Of a stretch of 64,000 nucleotides of DNA, positions 8,170-18,871 are shown one piece after another. Location of the stretch: contig NZ_CP156660.1 of the NCBI RefSeq assembly GCF_039851975.1, positions 3,043,035-3,107,034 of the forward strand, in the 5' to 3' direction. This stretch comes from Desulfoscipio sp. XC116. GTDB taxonomy: Bacteria > Bacillota > Desulfotomaculia > Desulfotomaculales > Desulfallaceae. The translations under genes were made by a program, and so were the position numbers. Each line of letters starts with the position of its first letter. Within the stretch, counting starts at the first letter, position 1. The notes below the pieces were generated by a model. The model made no database searches, was not told where the DNA came from, and saw nothing but the letters and a program-made list of their open reading frames with translations.

Positions 8170-8955
8170 TTATCCGGCAAGCAATGGAATACAGGCTTTA
8201 ATCGGCTCGCCTTTGTTATTGCATGTATCGGTTATTTTAACGTCGATACCATAGGCTGCTTTTAAGTTTTTCTCTGTAATCACTTCATCCGCACTGCCTA
8301 TGTTAAAAACATTATTCTTTTGCAGCAAGGCAACCTTAGTCGAACAAAGAAAAGCATGATCCGGAAAATGTGACGTCATAATTACGCCCAAACCCTTCCG
8401 GGAAAGACGGTTGATTTGCTCCAGCACCCTGATTTGATTGCCGAAATCCAGATTGGAAGTAGGCTCGTCCATAACCAGAATCTCCGGCTGCTGCGCCAAC
8501 GCCCGGGCAATCAGCACCATCTGTCTCTCGCCGCCACTGATTTCAGTATAAATACGCTCTTTAAGAAAAGAAACATTGAGGATTTCCAAAGCTTCCTCAG
8601 CGATGGCCAAATCGGCCCGAGAAGGCGACCCGGCCATACCCAGGTAAGCGGTCCTGCCCATAATCACCACATCGATAACTTTGAAAGGAAAGGGCGGGGT
8701 ATGGGCTTGGGGAACATACCCCATTGCTTTGGCCAAACGCCCGCGCGACCAGGTCTGTACATTCTCGCCATCCAGTAAAATCTCGCCTTCGCGCAGTTTC
8801 AAAAAACCCAGGATAGTCTTAAACAAGGTAGTCTTTCCCACCCCGTTAGGTCCCAGAAGACACAATATCTCCCCGGATTCCAGCTTGATGGATATATCCT
8901 CAACAACATTTTGTTTGCCATAGCCGCATGAAGCATGTTTGATCTCCAGTTTCAC
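8170..8955 (-). CDS. FecE/BtuD-like ABC transporter ATPase
   Basis: A 261-residue ATP-binding subunit of a chelate-type (iron, cobalamin or metallophore) importer. Walker A is GPNGVGKTT, the signature is SGGERQM, Walker B is ILVMDEPTSNLD, and the H-loop is TSHFPDH. The GTG start at 8955 has GGAGG upstream. It is the last gene of the minus-strand operon that begins at about 14.5 kb and carries the matching permease and binding protein, separated from them by two enzyme genes. It probably energises that permease; substrate is not known. Confidence 0.9.
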   Translation of the reverse strand: MKLEIKHASCGYGKQNVVEDISIKLESGEILCLLGPNGVGKTTLFKTILGFLKLREGEILLDGENVQTWSRGRLAKAMGYVPQAHTPPFPFKVIDVVIMGRTAYLGMAGSPSRADLAIAEEALEILNVSFLKERIYTEISGGERQMVLIARALAQQPEILVMDEPTSNLDFGNQIRVLEQINRLSRKGLGVIMTSHFPDHAFLCSTKVALLQKNNVFNIGSADEVITEKNLKAAYGIDVKITDTCNNKGEPIKACIPLLAG

Positions 8956-9019
8956 AGGCTATACCTCCCTGGTTAACAGCTATCCTATAAAGCCCGGGGC
9001 TTCACGGAAATTTCCGCGG

Positions 9020-10804
9020 TCAGTTGTTCTTCCATTGCCACTTGCTGCTGGGCTTACTGAAAGAGCGATTGATCTCCGGCAGGGAAAAATCCACGCCGTA
9101 AAATTGTTTATAAAACCCGGCCGCTTCCGCCCATACATCAAAATGATACACCTCCGGATGAAGCATATTGGCCATATGCAGCAGGCCCAGAATCCACCGG
9201 GGGCTGCCGAAATCCCAGCCGGGAGCGGGGTGGGTATATATCCGTTTGTTCTTCACCGCCTCAGCATTTATCCCGGCTTTACAGCACTCCGCATAAAAAT
9301 CATCAACGGAAGAGGATAGGAAAGCCGAAATAAATATAACATCCGGATTAAGAACGTTTAATTCCTCAGCAGAAATTCGACTGCCGGGCCTGCCGGAACA
9401 TTCTATTTCCTTATTAACGCTTATCCCCCCGCCTGCTTCAACCAACTGATTCTCGAAACGGCTTCCCATCAGGCTGAAAAGCGGTTTTCCCATAACATAA
9501 TACACACGGGGCCTCTTCCCGACAGCAGGCAGGGACTTATTAATTAGAGAAATCTTTGCTTCCATATAAGCAACCAGTTCCGCGGCCTTATCTTCCATCT
9601 GAGTCAGCTTGCCAAAATATCCGATCAGCTCAAGGTAAGAACCGGTATTTTGAATACTTTTGTGTAATTTTTGCATCCCATTATGGCCAAGCATACCTTC
9701 CCAAACCTGTACCACTTTTTTTATATCTGTAACGCCTATGGTAATTAAGATTGCTTCCACCATTTCCAGTGCTCTGGTAAAAGGGTAGCCGCCCTGAAAA
9801 TCATCTTCCCGGTAATTTATTTCCGCCGGCATTGCTTTTATGGGAATTTTCCAACCGCATTGCGGGCAAATATTACTGCGGGCTGAACCGGACCCGGAAA
9901 ACAGTAATTTCGCACCCATTGGACCGTAAAAGTCTCTTTTAAAGATAACTTCCCCGCAATGGGGGCAGAATGTATTCAGGTATTCCGTCCCGGGCGAATT
10001 AAAGAGATATACATAATTGAGCTGTTTTCTTAAACTTTGATATAGATTTTCGGCAGAGCGAATGGAAGGCTCTAAGGCCGGATCGGCCCCTTCCAGAGGG
10101 ATAAAGCGCATTACCTGTAAAGGTATTTCCGGCGATATGTTTGATAATTTCCCGGCCAGTTCCAATACTTCTTCCATATTATTGTTTTGTAAAATACAAG
10201 AAACTTCCACGTGGATACCATCTTGATAAAGCTTTTCAATATTTCTCAAAACCGGCTGCACCGTACTGCCGCCACAATTTTGGTATATCCGGGGGGACAA
10301 GCCCTTAACGCCTACATTGATAAAATCTAAATAACGGCTGATTTCAGCCAATGAGATTTCGGTAAAATAAGCATTTGTGGAACACCCCACCAATAAACCG
10401 CTCTTCTTAGCCAGGCGAGCTACATTAAGAAAGGTGAAAAATGATGCCAGCGGATCATTCAATAAAAAGGCAATGCCGATGCAGTCGTTTTTAACTGCTT
10501 CATCCACCACCTGCCGGGGGGATAATTCTCGCAAGGCTTTACTGGCAGGGGCCATCTCCTTGGCAATAACCGTGGAAAAACAACCCCGGCAATTAAAATT
10601 GCAGCCCGTAGTACTGATTTGCAGGAATTTTCCTCTCGGATGGAAATGCAAAACAGGCATCGTTTCAATGGAAATGGGACATACAGTCAAATATTTATTG
10701 GGAAATAGCTCAATTATATTTTCCCCGTTGTTTCTGTAAAGCCCACAGGCTCCGGTATTTCCTTCCGCAATGGTGCAGCCTCTTTCGCAGATATTACATT
10801 TCAT
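9020..10804 (-). CDS. Radical SAM protein fused to an ABC substrate-binding domain
   Basis: This 594-residue protein joins two usually separate parts. Residues 1-30 hold a Cys cluster (C3, C6, C10, C20: CNICERGCTIAEGNTGACG) like that preceding the radical-SAM core of PflA/AmrS-type proteins. The [4Fe-4S] motif CNFNCRGC (C68, C72, C75) follows, then a radical-SAM barrel to about 270. Two CxxC pairs (CPHCGE at about 280, CPQCGW at about 310) suggest a rubredoxin-like knuckle. Residues from about 340 resemble a TroA/FecB-like binding protein, including LNPDVIFISAFLSSSVDD and a conserved C-terminus (SPRWILGLLHMANMLHPEVY...FYKQFYG) shared with the operon's lipoprotein. No signal peptide, so it is cytoplasmic. 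Reaction unknown. Confidence 0.8.
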   Translation of the reverse strand: MKCNICERGCTIAEGNTGACGLYRNNGENIIELFPNKYLTVCPISIETMPVLHFHPRGKFLQISTTGCNFNCRGCFSTVIAKEMAPASKALRELSPRQVVDEAVKNDCIGIAFLLNDPLASFFTFLNVARLAKKSGLLVGCSTNAYFTEISLAEISRYLDFINVGVKGLSPRIYQNCGGSTVQPVLRNIEKLYQDGIHVEVSCILQNNNMEEVLELAGKLSNISPEIPLQVMRFIPLEGADPALEPSIRSAENLYQSLRKQLNYVYLFNSPGTEYLNTFCPHCGEVIFKRDFYGPMGAKLLFSGSGSARSNICPQCGWKIPIKAMPAEINYREDDFQGGYPFTRALEMVEAILITIGVTDIKKVVQVWEGMLGHNGMQKLHKSIQNTGSYLELIGYFGKLTQMEDKAAELVAYMEAKISLINKSLPAVGKRPRVYYVMGKPLFSLMGSRFENQLVEAGGGISVNKEIECSGRPGSRISAEELNVLNPDVIFISAFLSSSVDDFYAECCKAGINAEAVKNKRIYTHPAPGWDFGSPRWILGLLHMANMLHPEVYHFDVWAEAAGFYKQFYGVDFSLPEINRSFSKPSSKWQWKNN

Positions 10805-11432
10805 CTTTGCTTCCCCTTATCACTATCCATAATCCCGCCTCATCCCGGTTTACTTCAAAAAACGGTATTTTAGTGTTTTGTAATATTTTCACATAAGCTT
10901 CCGGAGCATTCTCCCCAATGTTTTTATTCATCATGGCGCGCCAGTTTTTATTCTCTTTTTCCATTCTGGCAGCAATCCGTTTTTTTAGCTCCGCCGTACC
11001 AAAACCGCCGCCAATATAAGCAACACCCCCCGGAGCAAGCACCCTGTATATTTCTTCAAAGGCCTTTTGCCGGTCTTCCCAGAAAAATATTGAGCCCCGG
11101 CTGACAATCAGATCAATTGATTGATCAGGCAGCGGGATTTTTTGAACATCGGCAAATAATGTTTGCATTCTTGCCGTCAGCCCGGCGGCAGAAATGTTGC
11201 CGCCGGCAATCTCCAGCATTTCCGTTGATCTATCCGCTAAATAAACATAAAGTTCAGTAACCCGGGCCAGAGCAATGCCTAAATAACCGCCTCCGCAACC
11301 AATATCCAGACACTTCCCGACGCTAATGCCTGTCTTTTGTTTGATCTGTTCCGCAATAACAGGATAAACCGGAGCAAACACTTCCCGGGCAATATTATCA
11401 AATTCGGAAACATTCATTTTTATCTCACTCAT
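10794..11432 (-). CDS. Class I SAM-dependent methyltransferase
   Basis: A 212-residue methyltransferase with the SAM-binding glycine loop LDIGCGGGYLGIALA, an acidic residue after strand 2 (LADRSTEM), motif IV-like IDLIVSRGSIFFWED and the post-motif IYRVLAPGGVAYIGG. It is a Methyltransf_11/25-type enzyme acting on an unknown, probably small, substrate. It overlaps the radical-SAM fusion gene by 11 bp and follows the binding-protein gene, so it is translated as part of the operon. In this setting it may modify the transported chelate or a related cofactor (inference). Confidence 0.85.
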   Translation of the reverse strand: MSEIKMNVSEFDNIAREVFAPVYPVIAEQIKQKTGISVGKCLDIGCGGGYLGIALARVTELYVYLADRSTEMLEIAGGNISAAGLTARMQTLFADVQKIPLPDQSIDLIVSRGSIFFWEDRQKAFEEIYRVLAPGGVAYIGGGFGTAELKKRIAARMEKENKNWRAMMNKNIGENAPEAYVKILQNTKIPFFEVNRDEAGLWIVIRGSKDEM

Positions 11433-11480
11433 GCTTCCTAACCTCTCCCCACCATGTATTTATCAATTTTGATTGCTTCC

Positions 11481-11499
11481 AGCCGCCTTCAAGGCGGCT
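11481..11499 (-). promoter_or_regulatory. Perfect palindrome at the 3' end of the binding-protein gene
   Basis: AGCCGCCTTGAAGGCGGCT is a near loopless palindrome that begins at the binding-protein stop codon and has no U run. Such stems after binding-protein genes commonly protect the upstream message and lower downstream expression; that role here is inferred. Confidence 0.5.
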
Positions 11500-12607
11500 A
11501 GTTGGCCGCGGGCTCCTGACTCAGCAGTGCTTTTGCCTGTTCATCGCTTAGATCGTAATGATAAAATTTCTGGTAAAAGTTCTTTACCTCCGTCACCATG
11601 TCGTAATTAAACACCTCGGGATAGAGCAGATTACCAAGCCATTTAAATCCGATAATCCGGTTAACCGAGGGCGGCCTGTCAAACCAGTTATAAGGCGCGT
11701 TGGGAATTCGATAGACACGATGCTGCTGAACAGCCTTAATTGGCTGCCAGGCCGGATCGCTCATAATCCCCTGATAGAATCCTCCCTGATTCTCCTGCCA
11801 GGCCAGGATTACCTCGGGATTCCATGACAGTACTTGTTCCATGGAAACCGGCGTCTGGCCCGCGTTCATACCTCCCGCTCCTTGTTGAGTAACCTCGGCC
11901 ACGTTAATTCCGCCGACCACCTGCAGCGTTTCAATATGTCTTGAACCATCGGGTTCTGTCTCCAAGCCTTTCGGGCCTTCCGCGTAATATACCCTGACAC
12001 GCTGATCACTAGGAATTTGGGCGGCTTTAGCAGTAACATCGTCGATTGTATTGCGGCAGTAATCGGCCAATTCTTGGGCGCGAGTTTTTTCGCCAAGCAG
12101 GTCTCCCATAAATTCAAGGGCCTTGTCCATACCCGTCACGGGAGCGTCTATCAAAACCACCGGTATCCCCAATTGTTTCTGAATTTTATCGGCATTGGAA
12201 ATCTCGGTGTTATTGATAGCGCCCAGATTGATAAGCACATCAGGCTTTACTTTCAATAGCTCCTCCGTATTGCCGGTGTTTTTGGCGTACCAGCCTCCCA
12301 GATTAGGCAATGACTGGTACTCGGGTGAAATAAACTTTTTCTCGTCGGGCCGCAATTCATAATTCCACCCTACCATCTTGTCCGGACACAACGTATAAAG
12401 TGCAATAGCGCCTATCGGATTGGTTGAAAAGGCTGTCTTAATTGTGACCGGAACAGTTACGGACCGCCCCGCCATATCTGTGATCGTACGTGTTGCCGCA
12501 TCCTGATCGGCCGGTGTGGAAGCAGTTTGGCCGCACCCGGCAAGACTTAACACAAGCAAGGCTATGATAGTCAGACCAAGCAAACAGCTGATTTTTTTCT
12601 CATGCAT
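11498..12607 (-). CDS. Lipoprotein substrate-binding protein of the chelate ABC importer
   Basis: A 369-residue cluster A-II/FecB-like binding protein. The signal peptide ends in the lipobox LSLAGC, so it is anchored outside the membrane. The mature start TITDMAGRSVTVP is the usual entry for iron/cobalamin/metal-chelate binding proteins, followed by VKPDVLINLGAI and, in the second lobe, VLSWNPEVILAW and the C-terminal VNRIIGFKWLGNLLYPEVF...FYQKFYHYDLS. This last segment matches the C-terminus of the radical-SAM fusion, which implies common descent. It feeds the FecCD-like permease upstream of it in the operon. Ligand unknown. Confidence 0.88.
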   Translation of the reverse strand: MHEKKISCLLGLTIIALLVLSLAGCGQTASTPADQDAATRTITDMAGRSVTVPVTIKTAFSTNPIGAIALYTLCPDKMVGWNYELRPDEKKFISPEYQSLPNLGGWYAKNTGNTEELLKVKPDVLINLGAINNTEISNADKIQKQLGIPVVLIDAPVTGMDKALEFMGDLLGEKTRAQELADYCRNTIDDVTAKAAQIPSDQRVRVYYAEGPKGLETEPDGSRHIETLQVVGGINVAEVTQQGAGGMNAGQTPVSMEQVLSWNPEVILAWQENQGGFYQGIMSDPAWQPIKAVQQHRVYRIPNAPYNWFDRPPSVNRIIGFKWLGNLLYPEVFNYDMVTEVKNFYQKFYHYDLSDEQAKALLSQEPAAN

Positions 12608-12690
12608 CAGTTATCTTCCCCCTATCTTAATAATTTACGGTAAATCCCCAACCAACTTTTTACCAGGTACCTTATGTAATCCTTCCGGCC

Positions 12691-13767
12691 TCACTCCCAT
12701 CCCTTTCTGCCGGACACCAAAAGGTAGAAAAAGAACGGCGCCCCGATAAGTGCGGTAAGAATTCCCAGGGGAATCTCGACAGAAGTTATGCAGCGGGCCA
12801 AATCATCAACAAGCAGCAAATAAGCCCCCCCGAGAATAATTGATGTCGGCAGCAATATTTTGTAATCTGGACCGACAATCATGCGCGCCCAATGCGGCAC
12901 GATCAGTCCCACCCAGCCGACGAGGCCGCTGATTGATACGGCGGCCGCGGTCATAAGCGTAGAACATATAATAACAATAAACCTTAATTTTCCGGTCTCC
13001 AACCCCATAGCCATCGCTTCTTCTTCACCCAGGGATAAAACATTCAGACGCCAGCGCAGAATATACAGGGGTATTCCCCCCAGTAAAATGGGAATAATCC
13101 CTGTCAATACATCCCGAGGTGTTATGGCGGCCAAGCTGCCCATCAGCCAAAAGGTAATGGCGGGAAGTTTGTCATAGGGATCGGCTACAAACTTGATTAA
13201 CGACGTGGCCGAGCTAAATATCGTGCCCACCAATACCCCGGTTAAAACCAGCACGAGCGTGGGATCCAACCGGACTTTTCTGCTGATAAAATAAGTAAGC
13301 ATCACGGCCATAAGACTAAAGATAAACGCCGACAATTGAATACCGAAAACATTTAATGAAAAATAAATACCCATGGCAGCTCCAAATCCCGCACCGGCAG
13401 AGGCCCCAAGAATATCCGGAGATACCAGCGGGTTTTTGAACATACCCTGGTAAGCCGCCCCGGAAGTAGCCAAAGCGGCCCCAACCAGCAAAGCCGCAAA
13501 AATCCTTGGCAGCCTCACATTAAACACCACGATATCCATAGCAGCCGGCCAGGTATGAGTAATAGGAAATACTTTGGCGGCCAAAATCAAAAATAAATTA
13601 TCCGGCGACACCGGATACCTGCCCAGAGGAAACGAAAGAATGATAATCAAAAGGGCTATACCCACAAGAATTAGCTCTTTATGCCAGTACTTAAGTGTTT
13701 TCGCTTTAAGCTTTTTGTCCATCCCCATTTCTTTATCGGCTTTTCCAGGCATCATTTCATCAGACAT
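12691..13767 (-). CDS. FecCD-family ABC permease
   Basis: A 358-residue permease with about nine to ten hydrophobic segments. Family motifs are visible: RLPRIFAALLVGAALATSGAAYQGMFKNPLVSPDILG-type sequence in the second quarter, and ISGLVGWVGLIVPHWARMIVGPDYKILLP near the C-terminus. The homodimer would form the channel for the lipoprotein and the GTG-started ATPase. It overlaps the DUF364 gene by 16 bp, so the two are coupled. A charged cytoplasmic N-terminus of about 30 residues is slightly longer than usual, and internal Met codons are alternative starts. Confidence 0.9.
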   Translation of the reverse strand: MSDEMMPGKADKEMGMDKKLKAKTLKYWHKELILVGIALLIIILSFPLGRYPVSPDNLFLILAAKVFPITHTWPAAMDIVVFNVRLPRIFAALLVGAALATSGAAYQGMFKNPLVSPDILGASAGAGFGAAMGIYFSLNVFGIQLSAFIFSLMAVMLTYFISRKVRLDPTLVLVLTGVLVGTIFSSATSLIKFVADPYDKLPAITFWLMGSLAAITPRDVLTGIIPILLGGIPLYILRWRLNVLSLGEEEAMAMGLETGKLRFIVIICSTLMTAAAVSISGLVGWVGLIVPHWARMIVGPDYKILLPTSIILGGAYLLLVDDLARCITSVEIPLGILTALIGAPFFFYLLVSGRKGWE

Positions 13768-14516
13768 TTTTCAACCTCTGAACTTGATATTTTAACCATG
13801 TTGCAGCCGTATTTAAATATACTCATACCATCGCCACCCGTCCGAACGAAGCTCCAAACCTTGTCATCTGTTATCACCGAGCCGGCCAGAGTGGAAATGC
13901 CATGGGCGAACAGCCGCGGGGTTAAAGGCGTACTTGGACCCACCAGGATCACCTTGCTTTTTCTCGTCAACTGCAGCAAGCGCGGCAGGGTCTTGTTGAT
14001 CAGCGTGGTGCCTGTAATAAAGACATAATCTTGCTGCGGCAAAAGGTATTCACAGGCCGGATCGGGGAAATCACCGGGTCCGGGCCGCCGCTCAAGTACG
14101 GAAAGTTCACAAATCTTATCCAACTGATCCAAGTCGGGGAAATGTCCAATCACTGCCACTTTCTTGCCGGAAAGCAGATTGCTGTAATAAATGAAAGCAT
14201 TTGTTTGTCGATGCTCGCTTACGAAACGCCCCGTCATCCGCTGGACCTGTTCTTCGGTGTTAATAGCGGAATTGATTGCCGCCAGGGCAACCGCCGCCTC
14301 AAAATTGTCCCACGATTTGATATAGCCCGCCAGTTCCCGCACGCCCATGCCCACAATACCACCGGCCATGCTTACCGAACCGGAGCCTTCTTTGGGTGTC
14401 ATAGCAACACCGGTAGTTCTTGATTTAACCAGAGTCCAATTCAGCCCGACACAACAGTCATTTACCACTAAGTCACGGGGCACGGACTCAATTAACTCGT
14501 CGTAGATTTTCCACAT
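13752..14516 (-). CDS. DUF4213/DUF364 protein (putative heavy-metal chelation domain)
   Basis: A 254-residue protein. The N-terminal half (to about 110) corresponds to the enolase-N-like DUF4213, and the C-terminal half to DUF364, with VAVIGHFPDLDQL, YVFITGTTLINKTLPRLLQL, VILVGPSTPLTPRLF and a final GGDGMSIF region. DUF364 has been proposed to chelate or insert metals, without proof. The ATG at 14516 follows an ideal AGGAGG; an upstream ATG at 14582 lacks one. It is the first gene of the chelate-uptake operon. The long leader before it (about 255 nt) could carry regulation. Confidence 0.82.
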   Translation of the reverse strand: MWKIYDELIESVPRDLVVNDCCVGLNWTLVKSRTTGVAMTPKEGSGSVSMAGGIVGMGVRELAGYIKSWDNFEAAVALAAINSAINTEEQVQRMTGRFVSEHRQTNAFIYYSNLLSGKKVAVIGHFPDLDQLDKICELSVLERRPGPGDFPDPACEYLLPQQDYVFITGTTLINKTLPRLLQLTRKSKVILVGPSTPLTPRLFAHGISTLAGSVITDDKVWSFVRTGGDGMSIFKYGCNMVKISSSEVEKCLMK

Positions 14517-14773
14517 TAATATCTGCCTCCTCGTCCGTTTATTGATCATGCCGTTCATACCGCAAACGCCGCGAACAGGCATATTATTCAGGTAATTAAC
14601 GGATTAGGCCACTATGCCGCCGACGCAGCACCATCAGAGAATGAAAAATAGATAATGTATGCAGGAGTCCGTCGGTTGCATGAATAAATATAACATTACA
14701 TAACGTGATGTTTATGCCGACATTTCGAGCACAATACAATACATAAGCAAACAAAACAGCAGATAACGTATTA
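14517..14773 (-). promoter_or_regulatory. Long 5' leader of the chelate-uptake operon
   Basis: Roughly 255 nt separate the predicted transcription start from the DUF364 start codon. I found no conserved cobalamin, FMN, TPP or yybP-like core. A GC-rich stretch in the middle could fold (GCGTCGGCGGC region, about 14610-14630). It may be an unrecognised cis-regulatory RNA or simply a long leader. Confidence 0.3.
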
Positions 14774-14780
14774 TAGGGCA

Positions 14781-14809
14781 ATAATAAATTATAGTAAAAC
14801 AGTTGTCAA
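14781..14809 (-). promoter_or_regulatory. Sigma-A type promoter for the chelate-uptake operon
   Basis: On the minus strand TTGACA (14809-14804) is followed after exactly 17 nt by TATTAT (14786-14781). This is a near-consensus housekeeping promoter facing the DUF364 gene. Confidence 0.65.
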
Positions 14810-14837
14810 TAGAGTTAAGCCGGAGCCGGGCAAAAAG

Positions 14838-14874
14838 AGCAGCACCGGGTGTGTCGATGGTGCTGCTTTTTTTT
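14838..14874. terminator. Bidirectional intrinsic terminator
   Basis: AGCAGCACC and GGTGCTGCT form a 9-bp stem. On the plus strand it is followed by eight Ts, on the minus strand by CTTTTT. No intact gene ends here on either strand; on the minus strand it would follow the decayed gene at 14959-15166. Confidence 0.65.
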
Positions 14875-14958
14875 ATGTAAAGTTACTCAATGGCCTTTCC
14901 GACCTGATGATATATTTCCCATTTCACCACGGACTGGAGAATGCACCACCGTCCGGGC

Positions 14959-15166
14959 TCATACATTATACGCACCAAACTGCAGCATTACATCAGCCGA
15001 TTTGTTTATGGTGACACCGGGGACTGCCGCCAGCATAATAGTATCGTCTTGCCTCACTAAAGAGGGGCTTTAATTGTTTTGATTGAGTCCGCTACGTTTA
15101 CCTCTCCGTAATCTACCTACAGTCTTATCTCCAGCAGGTCATTGCTAATGCCGGCTCCAACAATAT
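14959..15166 (-). pseudogene. Decayed minus-strand coding remnant
   Basis: Read on the minus strand, the sequence gives protein-like stretches broken by stops and a frame change: IVGAGISNDLLEIRL, stop, VDYGEVNVADSIKTIKAPL, stop, then in another frame RQDDTIMLAAVPGVTINK and QFGAYNV before a TGA. A terminator follows in the right orientation. I do not recognise the parent family. It may be chance. Confidence 0.3.
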
Positions 15167-15209
15167 AATATATATAACATCATAGCCTTTTAGGGGGCGT
15201 CTTTCCCCT

Positions 15210-15238
15210 TTGATTGAAACTGTAAGCTTCGGTATGAT
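15210..15238 (+). promoter_or_regulatory. Promoter for the small hypothetical gene
   Basis: TTGATT (15210-15215), 17-nt spacer, TATGAT (15233-15238), 26 bp before the start codon of the 106-residue protein with AGGGGGTGA between. Confidence 0.55.
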
Positions 15239-15264
15239 ATAACAAACACAAGGGGGTGAAAAGA

Positions 15265-15585
15265 ATGGCAGAAATATCGAAAGAAACCGAACGAGGATTA
15301 GACAATGTCCATGGTTTCATCAATTATGCCATTGCATCCGGAGTTCCAGAAGTGATAATGTGGGAGTGGATATTCCACACCAAGCCAAAAGACCCAGTCA
15401 TAGTGGAAGAAATTTTAGCCACGGTGGATAACCTTGTTATAGGTGGCCAGCTTACCGTGCAACAAATATTCGGTATCGCAACTAAATCTGTATCCAACGC
15501 TACCGAAAATGAAGCAGGAGACATGCTTGATCCTGTTCGGGAATATTTGAAAGAAGTTATCAGACTTTGGGAACAAGGATACTAA
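15265..15585 (+). CDS. Small acidic hypothetical protein
   Basis: A 106-residue, mostly helical, acidic protein (MAEISKETERGLDNVHGF...REYLKEVIRLWEQGY) that I do not recognise. It has its own promoter, a strong AGGGGGTGA at the ATG at 15265, and an intrinsic terminator behind it, so it is very probably a real single-gene unit. There is no signal peptide, membrane segment or Cys motif. Conserved-looking aromatic positions (MWEWIFHT) may form a binding surface. It sits between the chelate-uptake and molybdate loci, with no evident operon partner. Confidence 0.7.
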   Translation: MAEISKETERGLDNVHGFINYAIASGVPEVIMWEWIFHTKPKDPVIVEEILATVDNLVIGGQLTVQQIFGIATKSVSNATENEAGDMLDPVREYLKEVIRLWEQGY

Positions 15586-15624
15586 GTTAGTAGCCGCATA
15601 GCTATCCAAATATCAGTGGGATAA

Positions 15625-15653
15625 AGGAGTCGCATTTGCGACTCCTCTTTTTA
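15625..15653 (+). terminator. Intrinsic terminator
   Basis: AGGAGTCGCA and TGCGACTCCT form a strong stem followed by CTTTTTATT, 40 bp after the stop of the small hypothetical gene. Confidence 0.85.
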
Positions 15654-15718
15654 TTGGAAAAACCATTCTTAAAATTTACGTCGACACTGCCGCCGGTTAT
15701 TTTCCGAAACTCCGGTAA

Positions 15719-16342
15719 TCATCCCATAACTTCTTTGCAATTGAGATATTTTAACAAGCGAAGATAATCGTCATACACATTCATGTCCAGCAATATTGCT
15801 TCGTCATCCACTTCGGCTTCTACCGCCCCCGATTCAAAGTTCTTTAATACTCCACGCAGTCCTTCGTTGCTTGAGGTATTGCAAATATCCATTTTTAGCT
15901 CGGCCGAGATGAGGGGCGGATGTCCGCGTCTACCATTAAACACAGGATATACAATATCCGGTTTATCCGGTGCGTGAAAGCGTTCAAGTATAGTACATAT
16001 TGTTTTAACACTCACGAGCGGATTGTCCGCAGGCATAACGAAGAATGCTTTTACCCACGGTTCTAAAGTACCGATACCTTCCCGTACCGACGTGAACATT
16101 TCCTCGTAAAAACGCTCGTTAAAAATAAACCTGACAACATAGCGCTTTAATGTTTCTATCACATCAAGCGCGTTATAGCCCAGTACAATTCTTATATCGT
16201 TGATGCCCGCATAATAAAAGCAGCGAACGGAATGCTCAACAGCAGTGATATTTCCCAATTTCATCAAAGGTTTAAATTCTTTCATCCGGAATGAAGACCC
16301 GGCCGCAAGGATTATAACTGCTACATTATCTGTTATATCCAC
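15719..16342 (-). CDS. MobA/MocA-like nucleotidyltransferase
   Basis: A 207-residue NTP-transferase with the signature VAVIILAAGSSFRMKEFKPLMKLG at the N-terminus, the metal-binding VMPADNPLV and the later HPPLIS motif, as in MocA/CoxI-associated cytidylyltransferases and MobA guanylyltransferases. These add CMP or GMP to molybdenum cofactor. The GTG start at 16342 follows GGAGG; a longer frame begins at 16390 without one. The gene is divergent from modABC, which supports a molybdenum cofactor role. Which nucleotide it uses cannot be told. Confidence 0.8.
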   Translation of the reverse strand: MDITDNVAVIILAAGSSFRMKEFKPLMKLGNITAVEHSVRCFYYAGINDIRIVLGYNALDVIETLKRYVVRFIFNERFYEEMFTSVREGIGTLEPWVKAFFVMPADNPLVSVKTICTILERFHAPDKPDIVYPVFNGRRGHPPLISAELKMDICNTSSNEGLRGVLKNFESGAVEAEVDDEAILLDMNVYDDYLRLLKYLNCKEVMG

Positions 16343-16726
16343 CGAAATATTTCCTCCAAACAATTTTTGTTTCCTTATGCAGCTTGACATTTATTTTAAC
16401 ATACATTATTATTTGTGCATAGTTATGCTATATTATGTTATGTCGTGTTATGCTATGTTTAACCTCTCTTTGTTAACAGATTTAAGGTATACCTTTCAGA
16501 TGCTTATTGACACCGCCCCGGCAATAAAGACAGTATTTATCAATAAGAGTATTGGCATTTGCTGAAATAATATAAATTTAATTTAATAACGTTCTATAAA
16601 ATTTGACAACTGATTATTAACCGATTCGCATTGTATAAAAGGAGGTGGATAAAAAGATAAGCGACGCCTCGTTTTTTCGTACAGGCATGGACATTGTAAT
16701 GAAAGATTAACGGAAGGAGTCTGATT
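16343..16726. other. Divergent regulatory region between mocA-like gene and modABC
   Basis: This 384-bp AT-rich spacer holds the direct repeat described at 16423-16456, a lone TTGACA at about 16603 with TATAAA 25 nt on (too far for a normal promoter), and an AGGAGGTGG at about 16640 not followed by a start codon. No molybdenum-cofactor riboswitch could be recognised by eye. Confidence 0.4.
16423..16456. promoter_or_regulatory. TTATGCTAT direct repeats, candidate operator
   Basis: TTATGCTAT occurs at 16423-16431 and again at 16448-16456, exactly 25 bp apart, with further TTATG units between. It lies between the mocA-like gene and modABC and could bind a ModE- or metal-type regulator. This is pattern only; no regulator gene is adjacent. 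Confidence 0.3.
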
Positions 16727-17512
16727 ATGAAGAAAAAGTACATATTTTTAGGCCTTTTATTAATTGCCTTTGCCCTTACCGGATGCAACAATAATAAGGA
16801 GCAGTCCCAGTCAGAGGTAGAAACGGTCAAACTGACCATATCCGCCGCAGCCAGCATTCAGGATGCGGCGACAGAGCTAAAAGATATTTATCAGAAACAG
16901 CATTCCGAAGTGGAAATAACATATACTTTTGCCGCTTCCGGTCCCCTGCAAAGACAGATTGAGGAAGGGGCTCCCGTCGACTTGTTTATCTCCGCCGGTA
17001 AAAAACAAATGGATGCCCTGGAGGATAAGGGGCTGATTATAGACAGCTCCAGAGTAAACCTGCTGAGCAACGAATTGGTATTGATAGCCGGTCAGGATAG
17101 CAAGCTTACAGGATTTGACGGTTTAACCGACGCCGCTGTAAAACAAATCAGCATTGGCACGCCTGAGACCGTGCCTGCGGGAAGCTACGCCGAGGAAGCA
17201 CTGACCAGCCTGGGACTATGGGAGCAGATACAGTCCAAACTGGTTCCGGCCCAAAACGTGCGTCAGGTATTGCAATACGTTGAAACCGGCAACGTGGATG
17301 CCGGGCTGGTGTACCGGTCGGATACTATTACCGGCAAGAACATTAAAGTAGTTGCAGCCGCCCCGGCTGATTCGCACAAGCCCATTGAGTATCCCATGGC
17401 CGTTGTTAAAAGCACCAAGCATCAGAAGGAAACCGAGGAATTTGCCGCTTTCTTGCAAAGCGCCGCGGCAAAGGACGTGTTTCAAAAATACGGTTTTATA
17501 ACCTCAAAGTAG
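16727..17512 (+). CDS. modA: Molybdate ABC transporter substrate-binding lipoprotein
   Basis: ModA captures molybdate (or tungstate) outside the membrane. The 261-residue protein has a signal peptide with lipobox ALTGC, then LTISAAASIQDAATELKDIY, the oxyanion-binding FAASGPLQRQIEEGAPVDLFISAGKKQMD, and ISIGTPETVPAGSYAEEAL, all classical ModA features. Ribosome site GGAAGGAG precedes the ATG. It is followed by modB after 22 bp and modC after a further 14 bp in one operon. Molybdate against tungstate preference is not decidable by eye. Confidence 0.94.
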   Translation: MKKKYIFLGLLLIAFALTGCNNNKEQSQSEVETVKLTISAAASIQDAATELKDIYQKQHSEVEITYTFAASGPLQRQIEEGAPVDLFISAGKKQMDALEDKGLIIDSSRVNLLSNELVLIAGQDSKLTGFDGLTDAAVKQISIGTPETVPAGSYAEEALTSLGLWEQIQSKLVPAQNVRQVLQYVETGNVDAGLVYRSDTITGKNIKVVAAAPADSHKPIEYPMAVVKSTKHQKETEEFAAFLQSAAAKDVFQKYGFITSK

Positions 17513-17534
17513 TTTTTAATATGGAGTTATAGCT

Positions 17535-18206
17535 ATGTATTTTCAAATCGATGACTGGTTCCCGGTGTTTCTTTCTTGCCGGGTAGCGTTAATTGCACTG
17601 GCGGTTGTTGCCTGTTTCGGATTACCGGTGGCCAGATTGCTGGCCCGCCGGGAATTTCCCGGCAAGGACGTGCTGGAGGCGGCTATAACACTGCCTTTGG
17701 TGCTGCCGCCTTCGGTTATCGGCTACGGCCTGCTGGTGATAATAGGCAAAAACGGCCCGCTGGGTAAAGTCCTGGCGGAAATGGGAGCATCAATAATATT
17801 TACCTGGTGGTCGGCTGTGCTGGCTTCCACTGTGGTAGCCTTCCCTTTGATGTATCAGAGTGCCAAGGCGGCCTTTAAAAGCGTGGACATTAATTATGAG
17901 AAAGCCGCTCGCACCTTGGGCGCCGGCGAGATAAGAATTTTTTTCACCATCACTATGCCTCTGGCCTGGCCGGGCATCATAGCCGGGCTGGTACTTTCCT
18001 TTGCCAGAGCGCTGGGTGAATTCGGCGCTACTTTAATGGTGGCGGGAAATATACCCGGACAAACGCAGACTGTCCCTCTGGCCATTTACCTTGCGGTGGA
18101 CGCGGGAGATAATGTTACCGCCAGGACTCTGGTGGCTATCATCACGGTATTCAGCTTCCTGGTTATTTTCTGGGTGAACAGATGGTCTAAGCGTCAAAAT
18201 CATTAA
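17535..18206 (+). CDS. modB: Molybdate ABC transporter permease
   Basis: A 223-residue permease with five to six membrane segments, of the ModB/CysT type. The cytoplasmic EAA loop that contacts ModC is seen as YEKAARTLGAGEIRIFFTITMPLAWPGI, and the C-terminal ALGEFGATLMVAGNIPGQTQT followed by VPLAIY is diagnostic for ModB. Start ATG 17535 follows GGAGTTATAGCT. It lies between modA and modC. Confidence 0.94.
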   Translation: MYFQIDDWFPVFLSCRVALIALAVVACFGLPVARLLARREFPGKDVLEAAITLPLVLPPSVIGYGLLVIIGKNGPLGKVLAEMGASIIFTWWSAVLASTVVAFPLMYQSAKAAFKSVDINYEKAARTLGAGEIRIFFTITMPLAWPGIIAGLVLSFARALGEFGATLMVAGNIPGQTQTVPLAIYLAVDAGDNVTARTLVAIITVFSFLVIFWVNRWSKRQNH

Positions 18207-18220
18207 ACAGCGGTGATATT

Positions 18221-18871
18221 ATGTTGAAAGCATGTTTTACCAAAAAACTATGGCATTTTACCCTGGATGTAAAGATTAACCTCGGTCATGAAATACTGGT
18301 GCTCTGGGGCCATTCGGGAGCAGGCAAGACCACTGTTCTGCATTGCTTGGCCGGCCTGTCCAGCCCCACCGGTGGATTCATCAAACTGGGCGACACTGTT
18401 CTTTACTCTTTGGATGAAAAAATTAACGTAAGTACACGGTTCAGACGAGTGGGCTATCTGTTTCAGGACTATGCCCTTTTCCCCCACCTGACAGTGCGGC
18501 AAAATGTACTGTACGGACTGAAATGTCAAAAGAATAATAATGGCAATCTGTCGGACCCCATGGAATTGCTGGAGTCATTCGGTGTGGGCCACCTGGTTGA
18601 CCGCTTTCCACGCCAGCTCTCCGGCGGGGAAAAACAACGGGTGGCCCTGGCCAGGGCGCTGGCGGTGCAACCGGAATTGCTGCTGCTGGATGAGCCTTTC
18701 AGCGCACTGGATAAAAATATAAAGGAAAGCTTGCGGCAAGAGATAAAAAAATTGCACCGGCAGTGGCAAATACCCTTTGTGCTGGTTACCCACGACGAAG
18801 AGGACGCCAGATTCCTGGGCGATAGAATAATATCCCTGGAAAAAGGCCGCATTATGGATACAGCCACTTGA
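18221..18871 (+). CDS. modC: Molybdate ABC transporter ATPase, short form without TOBE domain
   Basis: ATPase of the molybdate importer: Walker A GHSGAGKTT, Q-loop LFQDYALFPHL, signature LSGGEKQR, Walker B LLLLDEPFSALD, H-loop VLVTHDEED. At 216 residues it ends shortly after the H-loop region, so it lacks the C-terminal TOBE/MOP domain of about 130 residues that binds molybdate in long ModC. Short forms are known. The stop at 18871 is only 16 bp from the end of the convergent CoA-disulfide reductase gene, with no terminator visible. Confidence 0.93.
   Translation: MLKACFTKKLWHFTLDVKINLGHEILVLWGHSGAGKTTVLHCLAGLSSPTGGFIKLGDTVLYSLDEKINVSTRFRRVGYLFQDYALFPHLTVRQNVLYGLKCQKNNNGNLSDPMELLESFGVGHLVDRFPRQLSGGEKQRVALARALAVQPELLLLDEPFSALDKNIKESLRQEIKKLHRQWQIPFVLVTHDEEDARFLGDRIISLEKGRIMDTAT

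Follow-up and report, generated by a model that had tools for sequence, protein, structure and literature searches.

MolBC-A of Haemophilus influenzae is a type II importer of molybdate and tungstate that is not known to work with a radical-SAM enzyme, a methyltransferase, or a DUF364 protein. In the published account, it transports molybdate with low affinity, and deleting it made no difference when molybdate was low (PMC4031551). HmuW, the radical-SAM enzyme of a heme-uptake operon, is described as a class C radical-SAM methyltransferase able to liberate the iron of heme in the absence of oxygen (PMC10404700); the carrier in that system, HmuF, is flavodoxin-like and a protein of its own. The 2010 paper on the DUF364 protein Dhaf4260 (PDB entry 3l5o) noted a context of tungstate, molybdate, and vanadium transport, and its main text does not use the word "radical" (PMC2954201). 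No molybdenum or tungsten carrier for strict anaerobes was found in the literature searched. To our knowledge, how sulfate reducers, syntrophs, and acetogens acquire these metals under sulfide-driven scarcity is poorly understood. Sulfide makes both metals scarce, and the operon described here names candidate genes for their capture, import, and release.

The window, the whole 64,000-nucleotide stretch of Desulfoscipio sp. XC116 DNA that was analyzed, contains a six-gene operon on the minus strand. It resembles MolBC-A in its related binding protein, its BtuC-like importer type, and its link to molybdenum or tungsten, but differs in that a binding-protein lobe is fused to an enzyme and relatives have TonB receptors. 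With HmuW/ChuW/HutW it shares a radical-SAM enzyme encoded together with metal-complex uptake and a proposed logic of oxygen-free metal release, whereas the metal is another and the binding lobe is part of the enzyme. A profile search bore out the positions and families that a preliminary description had given for all six genes. The operon, with the two halves of the fusion and the flanking genes, reads as follows.

14781..14809, minus strand: sigma-70-like promoter match before the operon, TTGACA-17-TATTAT, 11/12 positions, a consensus match only
13752..14582, minus strand: DUF4213/DUF364 protein, 276 aa (PF04016, 129.9 bits, cut-off 23; PF13938, 76.3 bits)
12691..13767, minus strand: FecCD-type permease, 358 aa (PF01032, 289.8 bits)
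11498..12607, minus strand: substrate-binding lipoprotein of MolA/4pag type, 369 aa (Peripla_BP_2 PF01497, 78.2 bits)
10794..11432, minus strand: class I SAM methyltransferase, 212 aa (PF08241, 78.4 bits)
9020..10804, minus strand: fusion of radical-SAM enzyme and binding-protein C-lobe, 594 aa (PF04055, 60.8 bits; PF01497, 32.0 bits)
9815..10804, minus strand: N-terminal half of the fusion, residues 1-330 (Radical_SAM PF04055, 60.8 bits, residues 64-217)
9020..9814, minus strand: C-terminal half of the fusion, residues 331-594, helical cap, backbone helix, and C-lobe of a class III substrate-binding protein (PF01497, 32.0 bits)
8170..8955, minus strand: ABC ATPase, 261 aa (PF00005, 109.3 bits)
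15719..16390, minus strand: MobA/MocA-like nucleotidyltransferase, upstream neighbor of the operon (PF12804, 94.8 bits)
16727..17512, plus strand: ModA, molybdate-binding lipoprotein (TIGR01256, 230.2 bits, above the cut-off of 62.5)
17535..18206, plus strand: ModB permease (TIGR02141, 254.3 bits, above the cut-off of 182.6)
18221..18871, plus strand: ModC-like ATPase, short form (TIGR02142, 217.3 bits, below the cut-off of 285, profile positions 3-212 of 353)

Two of the five junctions overlap (DUF364/FecCD by 16 nt, methyltransferase/fusion start by 11 nt), whereas the remaining three are gaps of 83, 65, and 64 nt, so the genes are not "mostly overlapping" as first described. The single promoter proposed earlier has a good sigma-70-like counterpart at 14809-14781, but as a consensus match only, from a scan whose 15 sites compare with an average of 11.6 in shuffled sequence. 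PF01032, PF00005, and PF01497 all scored above their cut-offs within one operon, as expected of a FecCD/BtuC-type (type II) ABC importer; the top NCBIfam match of the permease was BtuC PRK09535 (233.5 bits, under the cut-off of 461). The lipoprotein carries an LAGC lipobox, read from the sequence. Compared with solved structures, its profile matched 4pag at E 9.7e-102 and MolA (3psa) at E 1.8e-38, and its model (pLDDT 87.6) gave Z scores of 36.6 and 26.6 to the same two proteins. MolA is the nearest characterized relative among solved structures, ranking third by sequence behind 4pag and 4ovk, both without an assigned ligand, and fourth by fold. The DUF364 protein is close to Dhaf4260 (E 1.8e-51), and the closest solved relative of the methyltransferase is 3dlc (E 6.7e-53). 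In the neighboring mobA and modABC genes, the MobA/MocA-like protein scored 219.3 bits against the DVU_1551 family, under its cut-off of 315.

The 594-residue protein is a true fusion of a radical-SAM enzyme with the C-lobe of a FecB/MolA-type binding protein, and its predicted structure has a pLDDT of 90.6 and a pTM of 0.90. The PF04055 match and a CX3CX2C motif place it in the Radical SAM superfamily. The motif cysteines (C68, C72, and C75) are invariant across 37 sequences; further cysteines lie at the N terminus (C3/C6/C10/C20) and later (C280/C283/C313/C316), with C313 and C316 nearly invariant and the remaining cysteine columns invariant. The modeled N-terminal half aligned with the PFL-activating enzyme 3c8f at Z 18.8. 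Its top NCBIfam match was AmmeMemoRadiSam (TIGR04337; 119.7 bits, below the cut-off of 220), followed by TIGR04317, a radical-SAM maturase of tungsten enzymes (31.4 bits, cut-off 380); the fusion's list of 24 NCBIfam families contained no HmuW/ChuW/HutW model.

The resemblance of the C terminus to the lipoprotein, pointed out in the preliminary description, goes beyond chance: BLASTP aligned residues 396-574 at E 9e-13, and a profile-profile alignment of both binding domains gave a probability of 99.8%. A relationship to binding proteins was likewise found by Pfam (Peripla_BP_2, residues 388-527, profile positions 93-233 of 235, cut-off 27.5) and by structure comparison of the model (Z 20.5 to 4hn9 over 221 residues, Z 18.0 to MolA 3psa), in which iron-linked YiuA and nickel-linked CeuE tied with MolA. 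The N-lobe β-sheet is missing in both profile and model, the stretch 339-427 being all helices with zero strands. Two full class III lobes and an export signal are both absent from the fusion; the lack of a signal peptide noted earlier is reflected in the N terminus, which is not hydrophobic (best 15-residue mean hydropathy 0.97 versus 2.86 for the lipoprotein). Recruiting a binding-protein lobe to hold the substrate of a radical enzyme would be an unusual protein design.

The architecture is conserved, occurring at 39 loci in named assemblies, mostly of anaerobes, and in 6 of 398 genomes of the phylum, the strain's own genome counted; none of 37 candidate stretches in viral contigs was confirmed to hold the fusion lobe. 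Of the 40 loci with the full fusion, 22 have a related methyltransferase directly beside it, and seven (L059, L068, L076, L078, L088, L090, and L091), some with short flanks, have no operon partner gene inside 8 kb. No report of a radical-SAM and binding-protein fusion with molybdenum or tungsten was found in the literature searched, judged by title and start of abstract.

Genomic context was assessed in 24 genomes, 18 from the 39 named loci and six from the phylum search. They were picked mainly for long flanks and cultured strains after most neighborhoods were known, and selection bias is possible. One genome (G410, which repeats G134) was dropped before counting, as were modA and DUF364 rows under the family cut-off and one row (G406) covering another fragment of a DUF364 gene already counted. 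Expected counts for modA, DUF364, MoeA, and the riboswitch below assume random placement in the genome, with contig ends ignored. A DUF364 gene lay within 10 kb of the fusion in 10 of 23 genomes against 0.31 expected, and modA did so in 6 of 23 against 0.27 expected. Among the 104 near-full-length FecCD rows, modA was at most 10 kb away for 8 of the 24 fusion-linked genes (from 6 genomes) and for 4 of the 80 others in these genomes (Fisher p 7e-4). MoeA proximity (2/23 versus 0.45 expected, P 0.07) was not significant and was rejected as evidence for the metal; MoeA neighbors occur at L059, L062, and L040/G015, and at L070 by cluster and eye only, and no MoeA match was found in Desulfobacter vibrioformis, a carrier of the system. 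ModD is a neighbor at L077. Two genes for aldehyde ferredoxin oxidoreductases, which are tungsten enzymes, adjoin L036. Fe-only nitrogenase genes lie near the fusion at L060, so another metal is possible at some loci.

The Mo/W-cofactor (Moco/Tuco) riboswitch RF01055 was located directly upstream of the fusion-holding gene run in 8 of 43 related loci scanned (L036, L037, L038, L059, L073, L074, L075, and L089, with L074/L075 near copies and L037/L038 from one genome), and not directly upstream in the other 35. At least 7 of 24 genomes had it no more than 10 kb from the fusion, where 0.91 would be expected; the 7 is a lower bound in that the observed count comes from the matches listed and the expectation from per-genome totals. 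The element was upstream in four of these genomes and downstream in G399, G403, and G015. Genome-wide scoring took 87-88 first-look candidates per genome, with L059 added and L075 left out; the locus scans left out L039 (repeats L075), L079 (repeats L041), and, for size, unfused L045 and L046. The window had no RF01055 match at gathering score and none at E up to 5 on 14300-16800, nor did the operon of the nearest relative, L056. Together, the gene and riboswitch context in relatives makes molybdenum or tungsten very probable as the metal. The mobA and modABC genes beside the window's operon and the relationship of its lipoprotein to MolA agree with this assignment.

We propose that the operon serves anaerobic acquisition of chelated molybdenum, possibly also tungsten, with the carrier opened inside the cell by the fusion; as a whole, this reading falls slightly short of an even chance. 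The lipoprotein would capture the chelated metal and the permease and ATPase would pump the chelate in, after a TonB receptor had carried it across the outer membrane in relatives that have one. Inside the cell, the fusion's binding-protein lobe may hold the imported complex, a step we regard as evenly balanced; since this lobe has its closest kin elsewhere than in the operon lipoprotein and no longer possesses the N-lobe sheet, its ligand may be a different one. The radical-SAM half could then attack the carrier by ring or side-chain cleavage or by methyl transfer, releasing the metal for cofactor synthesis, and the methyltransferase and DUF364 protein may serve the same carrier. Opening the chelate to free the metal, for which HmuW offers a precedent, is the enzyme chemistry we favor, although release by radical chemistry is put forward tentatively.

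The same genes could instead make a carrier: the fusion, methyltransferase, and DUF364 protein would build a small Mo/W-binding molecule that is secreted and retaken by FecCD, the lobe acting as a product or metal sensor of the synthase. On structural and contextual grounds, DUF364 has been proposed as the maker of a flavin- or pterin-like chelator (PMC2954201), and three tailoring-type enzymes share the operon. No NRPS condensation-domain match was found in 11 of 23 genomes carrying the system, so the carrier, if these genes make one, could be something other than an NRPS product. MATE exporters (cluster c15), the sole exporter-like family recognized among recurrent neighbor clusters, surround the fusion at L069 (confirmed), L078, and L084. 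However, these are 3 of 39 loci only, the gene list and Pfam profiles revealed no exporter gene in the window operon, and a synthase has no obvious need for a binding-protein lobe, making such a role unlikely, at perhaps one chance in four.

Uptake of a chelate, by contrast with that of the free ion, agrees with the TonB-receptor genes present at 7 of 15 loci from outer-membrane taxa (L065, L068, L069, L070, L072, L085, and L087, assigned by protein cluster; Pfam-confirmed for L065, L070, and L072); L070 also has an ExbB gene. These receptors make a chelate likelier than a free ion, and we consider it probable that the imported form is a chelate. The metal-chelate import first suggested from the FecCD-type importer survives, now with a probable metal. 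Should a free oxyanion or thiomolybdate be imported in MolABC fashion, the cytoplasmic lobe would bind molybdenum or tungsten and the radical-SAM half would use the metal, perhaps to mature a Mo/W enzyme or cofactor. The relationship of the lipoprotein to MolA, the low-affinity type II molybdate import by MolBC-A (PMC4031551), the second-ranked TIGR04317 match, and the aldehyde ferredoxin oxidoreductases at L036 fit this scheme, which nevertheless appears improbable, as the TonB receptors point to a bulky or scarce complex and modABC for the free ion already adjoins the operon. That the cargo is another complex, of iron, cobalamin, or nickel, with closeness to molybdenum genes due to regulation or chance, is very improbable given the context tests against other FecCD systems and genome background and the riboswitches heading related operons, even though B12 models, under cut-off, are the best match of the permease and of one TonB receptor, Helicobacter pylori CeuE with nickel and YiuA with iron are structural neighbors of the fused lobe, and L060 adjoins Fe-only nitrogenase.

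Contrary to what had been supposed, the fused lobe and the adjacent lipoprotein are not closely related. In the lobe tree, the 37 fused domains clustered together. The 22 operon lipoproteins and one orphan fell outside this cluster, and its neighbors were the binding proteins accompanying unfused relatives of the enzyme; an origin as a copy of the operon lipoprotein was rejected on this tree. The enzyme tree also placed the fused form beside the unfused systems, and this agreement suggests that enzyme and lobe have a history in common. Both trees were midpoint-rooted; the enzyme tree included 19 of 37 fused rows and carried a program warning, with the long row L052 meeting the fused branch. 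An ordinary AmmeMemoRadiSam clade (12 further hits from the phylum, assumed to be ordinary) stood apart from the fusion with support 100/100; this separation and the score of 119.7 against 220 bits reject an ordinary AmmeMemoRadiSam enzyme. The operon gives a branch of AmmeMemoRadiSam-like enzymes a possible job. The strain's own genome also holds an ordinary copy (G000:C1:451013).

The unfused set (L045-L055, 11 of the higher-scoring non-fused phylum hits, with L011, L019, and G189:C4 among those left out) contains the nearest relatives of both enzyme and lobe and has a binding protein, an ATPase, and mostly a FecCD gene nearby. It differs in that enzyme and binding protein are separate proteins and an unnamed protein of ~385 residues is encoded nearby. 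None of 12 members of this family matched Pfam, its four weak PDB matches (best E 0.005, yeast HSH49) were taken as chance, and tblastn gave no match in fusion loci.

RF01055 was present in 9 of 9 unfused loci scanned, in copies lacking an extra hairpin that the fusion-linked copies have. A Fisher comparison of the two sets at first included L074 without a fold of its element; with repeats removed it stands at 6 versus 9. We took this hairpin as P3 because it sits between the second helix and the helix capped by GAAA; in L075, the rule-based fold missed it because of an internal loop, and it was visible only in the drawn fold. Published riboswitch work associates such a hairpin with molybdenum rather than tungsten, and the hairpin-bearing copies therefore favor molybdenum over tungsten for the fused form. 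As a speculative extension that we think doubtful, the two forms could be sister pathways for chelated group 6 metals in anaerobes, one pairing the fused enzyme with a Mo-type riboswitch and the other an unfused enzyme and the ~385-residue partner with a W-type riboswitch, each opening an undescribed carrier within the cell; the fused lobe would be a binding protein turned intracellular substrate receptor. The fused form with the hairpin riboswitch and the unfused form without it make a matched pair, in which Mo-versus-W selectivity is directly testable.

The window carries a minus-strand operon in the gene order that a preliminary description had claimed, from a DUF364 gene to an ATPase gene. 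The genes had been called mostly overlapping; two of the five junctions overlap, and the other three have gaps of 64–83 nt. The first hint of a metal came from a mobA/modABC neighborhood that the earlier finding had not included.

14582–8170, minus strand: operon of genes for DUF364, FecCD permease, binding lipoprotein, SAM methyltransferase, radical-SAM fusion, and ATPase
15719–16390, upstream of the operon: MobA-like gene
16727–18871, divergent to the MobA-like gene: modA, modB, and a short modC

A 109-residue reading frame located between mobA and the operon (15256–15585, plus strand) had no Pfam match and one NCBIfam match at E 0.05. The window also contains a c-di-GMP-I riboswitch (RF01051; 43639–43718, plus strand, 42.6 bits).

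The fusion indeed has no signal peptide. Its residues 1–330 include a radical-SAM domain with a CX3CX2C motif, and residues 388–527 match Peripla_BP_2 at profile positions 93–233. A structure predicted from 37 natural sequences (pLDDT 90.6, pTM 0.90) was compared with known folds. Model residues 31–267 were closest to PFL-activating enzyme (Z 18.8), followed by NifB (16.3) and QueE (15.8), and residues 345–574 matched class III binding proteins, best 4hn9 (Z 20.5), with YiuA (18.3), Helicobacter pylori CeuE (18.1), and MolA (18.0) tied thereafter. The Peripla_BP_2 match and the class III fold relate the C-terminal part to binding proteins, and its reported likeness to the operon lipoprotein proved real by sequence and profile comparison. 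In the model, the stretch 339–427 consists of helices with no strand, indicating that the N-lobe sheet has been lost; the lobe is predicted to be a binding protein minus that sheet, with backbone helix and C-lobe retained. A radical-SAM enzyme carrying such a lobe is an unusual design.

We searched for this architecture across genomes and found full-length fusions in 6 of 398 sampled genomes of the phylum, the window's own genome counted, and 39 fusion loci in named assemblies, which include many MAGs; at three of the 39 (L084, L089, and L093) no full-length reading frame was parsed. Hosts include Desulfotruncus, Desulfosporosinus, Pelotomaculum, Sporomusa, Clostridium thailandense, Syntrophomonas, Desulfobacter, Desulfovibrio, Solidesulfovibrio, Anaerovorax, Moorella, and Dethiobacter, among others. 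Within 8 kb of the fusion at the 30 loci with long flanks, we found a related binding-protein gene at 24, a methyltransferase at 22, and FecCD and a related ATPase at 19 each. Co-occurrence with DUF364, proposed earlier as a check, held at 10 of these 30 loci. No partner gene was seen at 7 of 40 fusion loci, several desulfovibrios among them. The fusion is thus conserved and, by the partner counts at the long-flank loci, usually a member of this operon type.

Some genomes hold additional copies or relatives. Desulfosporosinus BRH_c37 encodes, besides the fusion, the enzyme half alone (L057:12979–13980; 333 aa, 74% identical), ~2 kb downstream of a hairpin-bearing element of RF01055, the Mo/W cofactor riboswitch (10821–10952). 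Genome G237 has two fusion operons (L037 and L038, both on C1) ~17 kb apart, each with its own RF01055 element upstream, the second being a minimal methyltransferase-fusion pair. Desulfobacter vibrioformis has a fusion and a 30%-identical relative at C10; neither a MoeA nor an RF01055 match was found in this genome.

Three lines of evidence bear on the metal. First, 6 of 23 genomes have modA no more than 10 kb from the fusion (0.27 expected), and 8 have it within 20 kb (0.54 expected). As a stricter control, we compared FecCD genes of the same genomes: of those linked to a fusion, 8 of 24 have modA within 10 kb, two genomes being counted twice among the eight, versus 4 of 80 others (Fisher p = 7e-4). 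Second, RF01055 lies directly upstream of fusion-holding gene runs at 8 of 43 scanned loci (L036, L037, L038, L059, L073, L074, L075, and L089), of which L074 nearly duplicates L075, L037 and L038 share a genome, and L089 is a fragmented assembly; in L059 a further radical-SAM gene intervenes. At least 7 of 24 genomes have RF01055 within 10 kb of the fusion (0.91 expected). The element sits downstream of the fusion in L057 and L062, as does the nearby one in genomes G399, G403, and G015. No RF01055 match was obtained anywhere in four genomes of Gram-negative sulfate reducers, so little can be read into its absence at their fusion loci; the window's own genome yielded four matches, all of them away from this operon. 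Third, the nearest characterized PDB relative of the operon lipoprotein is MolA, which is described as binding molybdate and tungstate for a type II importer; that importer has low affinity, and its loss is without consequence at low molybdate (PMC4031551). MoeA proximity alone was not significant. The convergence of modA proximity, upstream RF01055, and MolA relatedness makes a strong case for molybdenum or tungsten.

The higher-scoring non-fused matches of the enzyme (32–36% identity) might have been the ordinary AmmeMemoRadiSam enzyme; we rejected this, as the enzyme tree separates fused (19 rows; 100/99), unfused (11; 99/96), and ordinary (12; 100/100) clades, with a program warning of one long branch. 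The 11 unfused loci followed (L045–L055) have binding-protein, ATPase, and FecCD genes nearby, with few exceptions: in L049 none of the three was found as a near relative, and in L052 no FecCD was found. All 11 encode a ~385-residue protein, usually beside the enzyme (on the opposite strand in L051), in which a YPGD motif is conserved and one Cys close to the C terminus is nearly invariant; none of 12 family members matched Pfam, and no convincing PDB relative was found. Examples are:

L050:5243–6403: ~385-residue protein
L053:8228–9388: ~385-residue protein

Each of the nine unfused loci scanned has one RF01055 element upstream of the enzyme-containing run, which in L052 includes one gap of ~0.5 kb. 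The lobe tree unites all 37 fused lobes in a single clade (100/100). Close kinship between these lobes and the lipoproteins of the fusion operons was not borne out: the nearest neighbors are the binding proteins of the unfused systems (95/88), a placement that is only suggestive because of the long branch to the fused lobes. Both trees would be accounted for if an ancestral pair of enzyme and binding protein had fused in a single lineage. An orphan binding lipoprotein of the window's genome (G000:C1:3193975–3195084; L044:7976–9085), 39% identical to the operon lipoprotein, groups with the operon lipoproteins; no FecCD gene was found in the 18 kb examined, the nearest one found lying ~11 kb off.

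The riboswitches also differ in structure. An additional hairpin, placed between the second helix and the GAAA-capped helix, is present in all seven folded elements upstream of fusion operons (L036, L037, L038, L059, L073, L075, and L089) and absent from the 12 elements of unfused loci. Counting near-identical and same-genome loci once, the hairpin occurs in 6 of 6 fused versus 0 of 9 unfused upstream elements (p = 2e-4). Among downstream elements, the hairpin is missing in L062 and present in L057; hairpin-bearing and hairpin-free elements coexist in one Syntrophomonas genome (G134). According to Regulski et al. (2008, PMC2408646), RNAs that possess a P3 stem are associated with the molybdenum cofactor and P3-less RNAs almost always with the tungsten cofactor, and P3 deletion did not convert the Escherichia coli RNA. 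By this correlative rule, the fused system would serve molybdenum and the unfused one tungsten.

Free molybdate is the cargo expected of ModABC, encoded next to the operon, and TonB transport serves bulky or scarce complexes. TonB-receptor genes (clusters c6 and c31, Pfam-confirmed in L065, L070, and L072) occur at 7 of 15 loci of taxa assigned by name as having an outer membrane (L065, L068, L069, L070, L072, L085, and L087), and are lacking at the remaining 24; L070 has a confirmed ExbB gene, and L072 a related one. These receptors and the adjoining ModABC make a chelate likelier than free molybdate, in line with the metal-chelate import first proposed. The cytoplasmic lobe of the fusion may then hold the imported molybdenum complex while the radical-SAM half breaks down or modifies its carrier and thereby frees the metal. 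HmuW of anaerobic heme uptake offers a precedent, sharing, as described (PMC10404700), the logic of a radical-SAM enzyme acting on an imported metal complex without oxygen. The main rival is that the operon's enzymes build the carrier, as a chelator-synthesis role proposed for DUF364 (PMC2954201) would suggest; however, no recurrent exporter was recognized except a MATE family at 3 of 39 loci. Because 11 of 23 genomes gave no NRPS condensation-domain match, a self-made nonribosomal peptide cannot be the general carrier.

Titles and abstract openings on DUF364, FecCD with tungsten and radical SAM, Mo/W metallophores, AmmeMemoRadiSam, Moco riboswitches, and their combinations gave no account of this fusion or of riboswitch-controlled radical-SAM/FecCD operons, which is weak evidence of absence, as the scope excluded all bioRxiv preprints and the majority of subscription papers. 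The system is a real, conserved variant of FecCD-type Mo/W uptake and, as first supposed, undescribed within the literature searched.

A second DUF364-type gene of the window's genome (G000:C1:341029–344246) lies beside a second modA-like ABC transporter and an HTH/PBP_like regulator; a weak DUF364 match is again paired with a modA-like gene in genomes G237, G371, G189, G403, and G405. The fusion of Desulfosporosinus fructosivorans is immediately preceded by a divergent nitrogenase-like D/K/H set (L060:5203–8912) and followed by the Fe-only nitrogenase genes anfD, anfG, and anfK, all above cut-off (L060:13673–18843).
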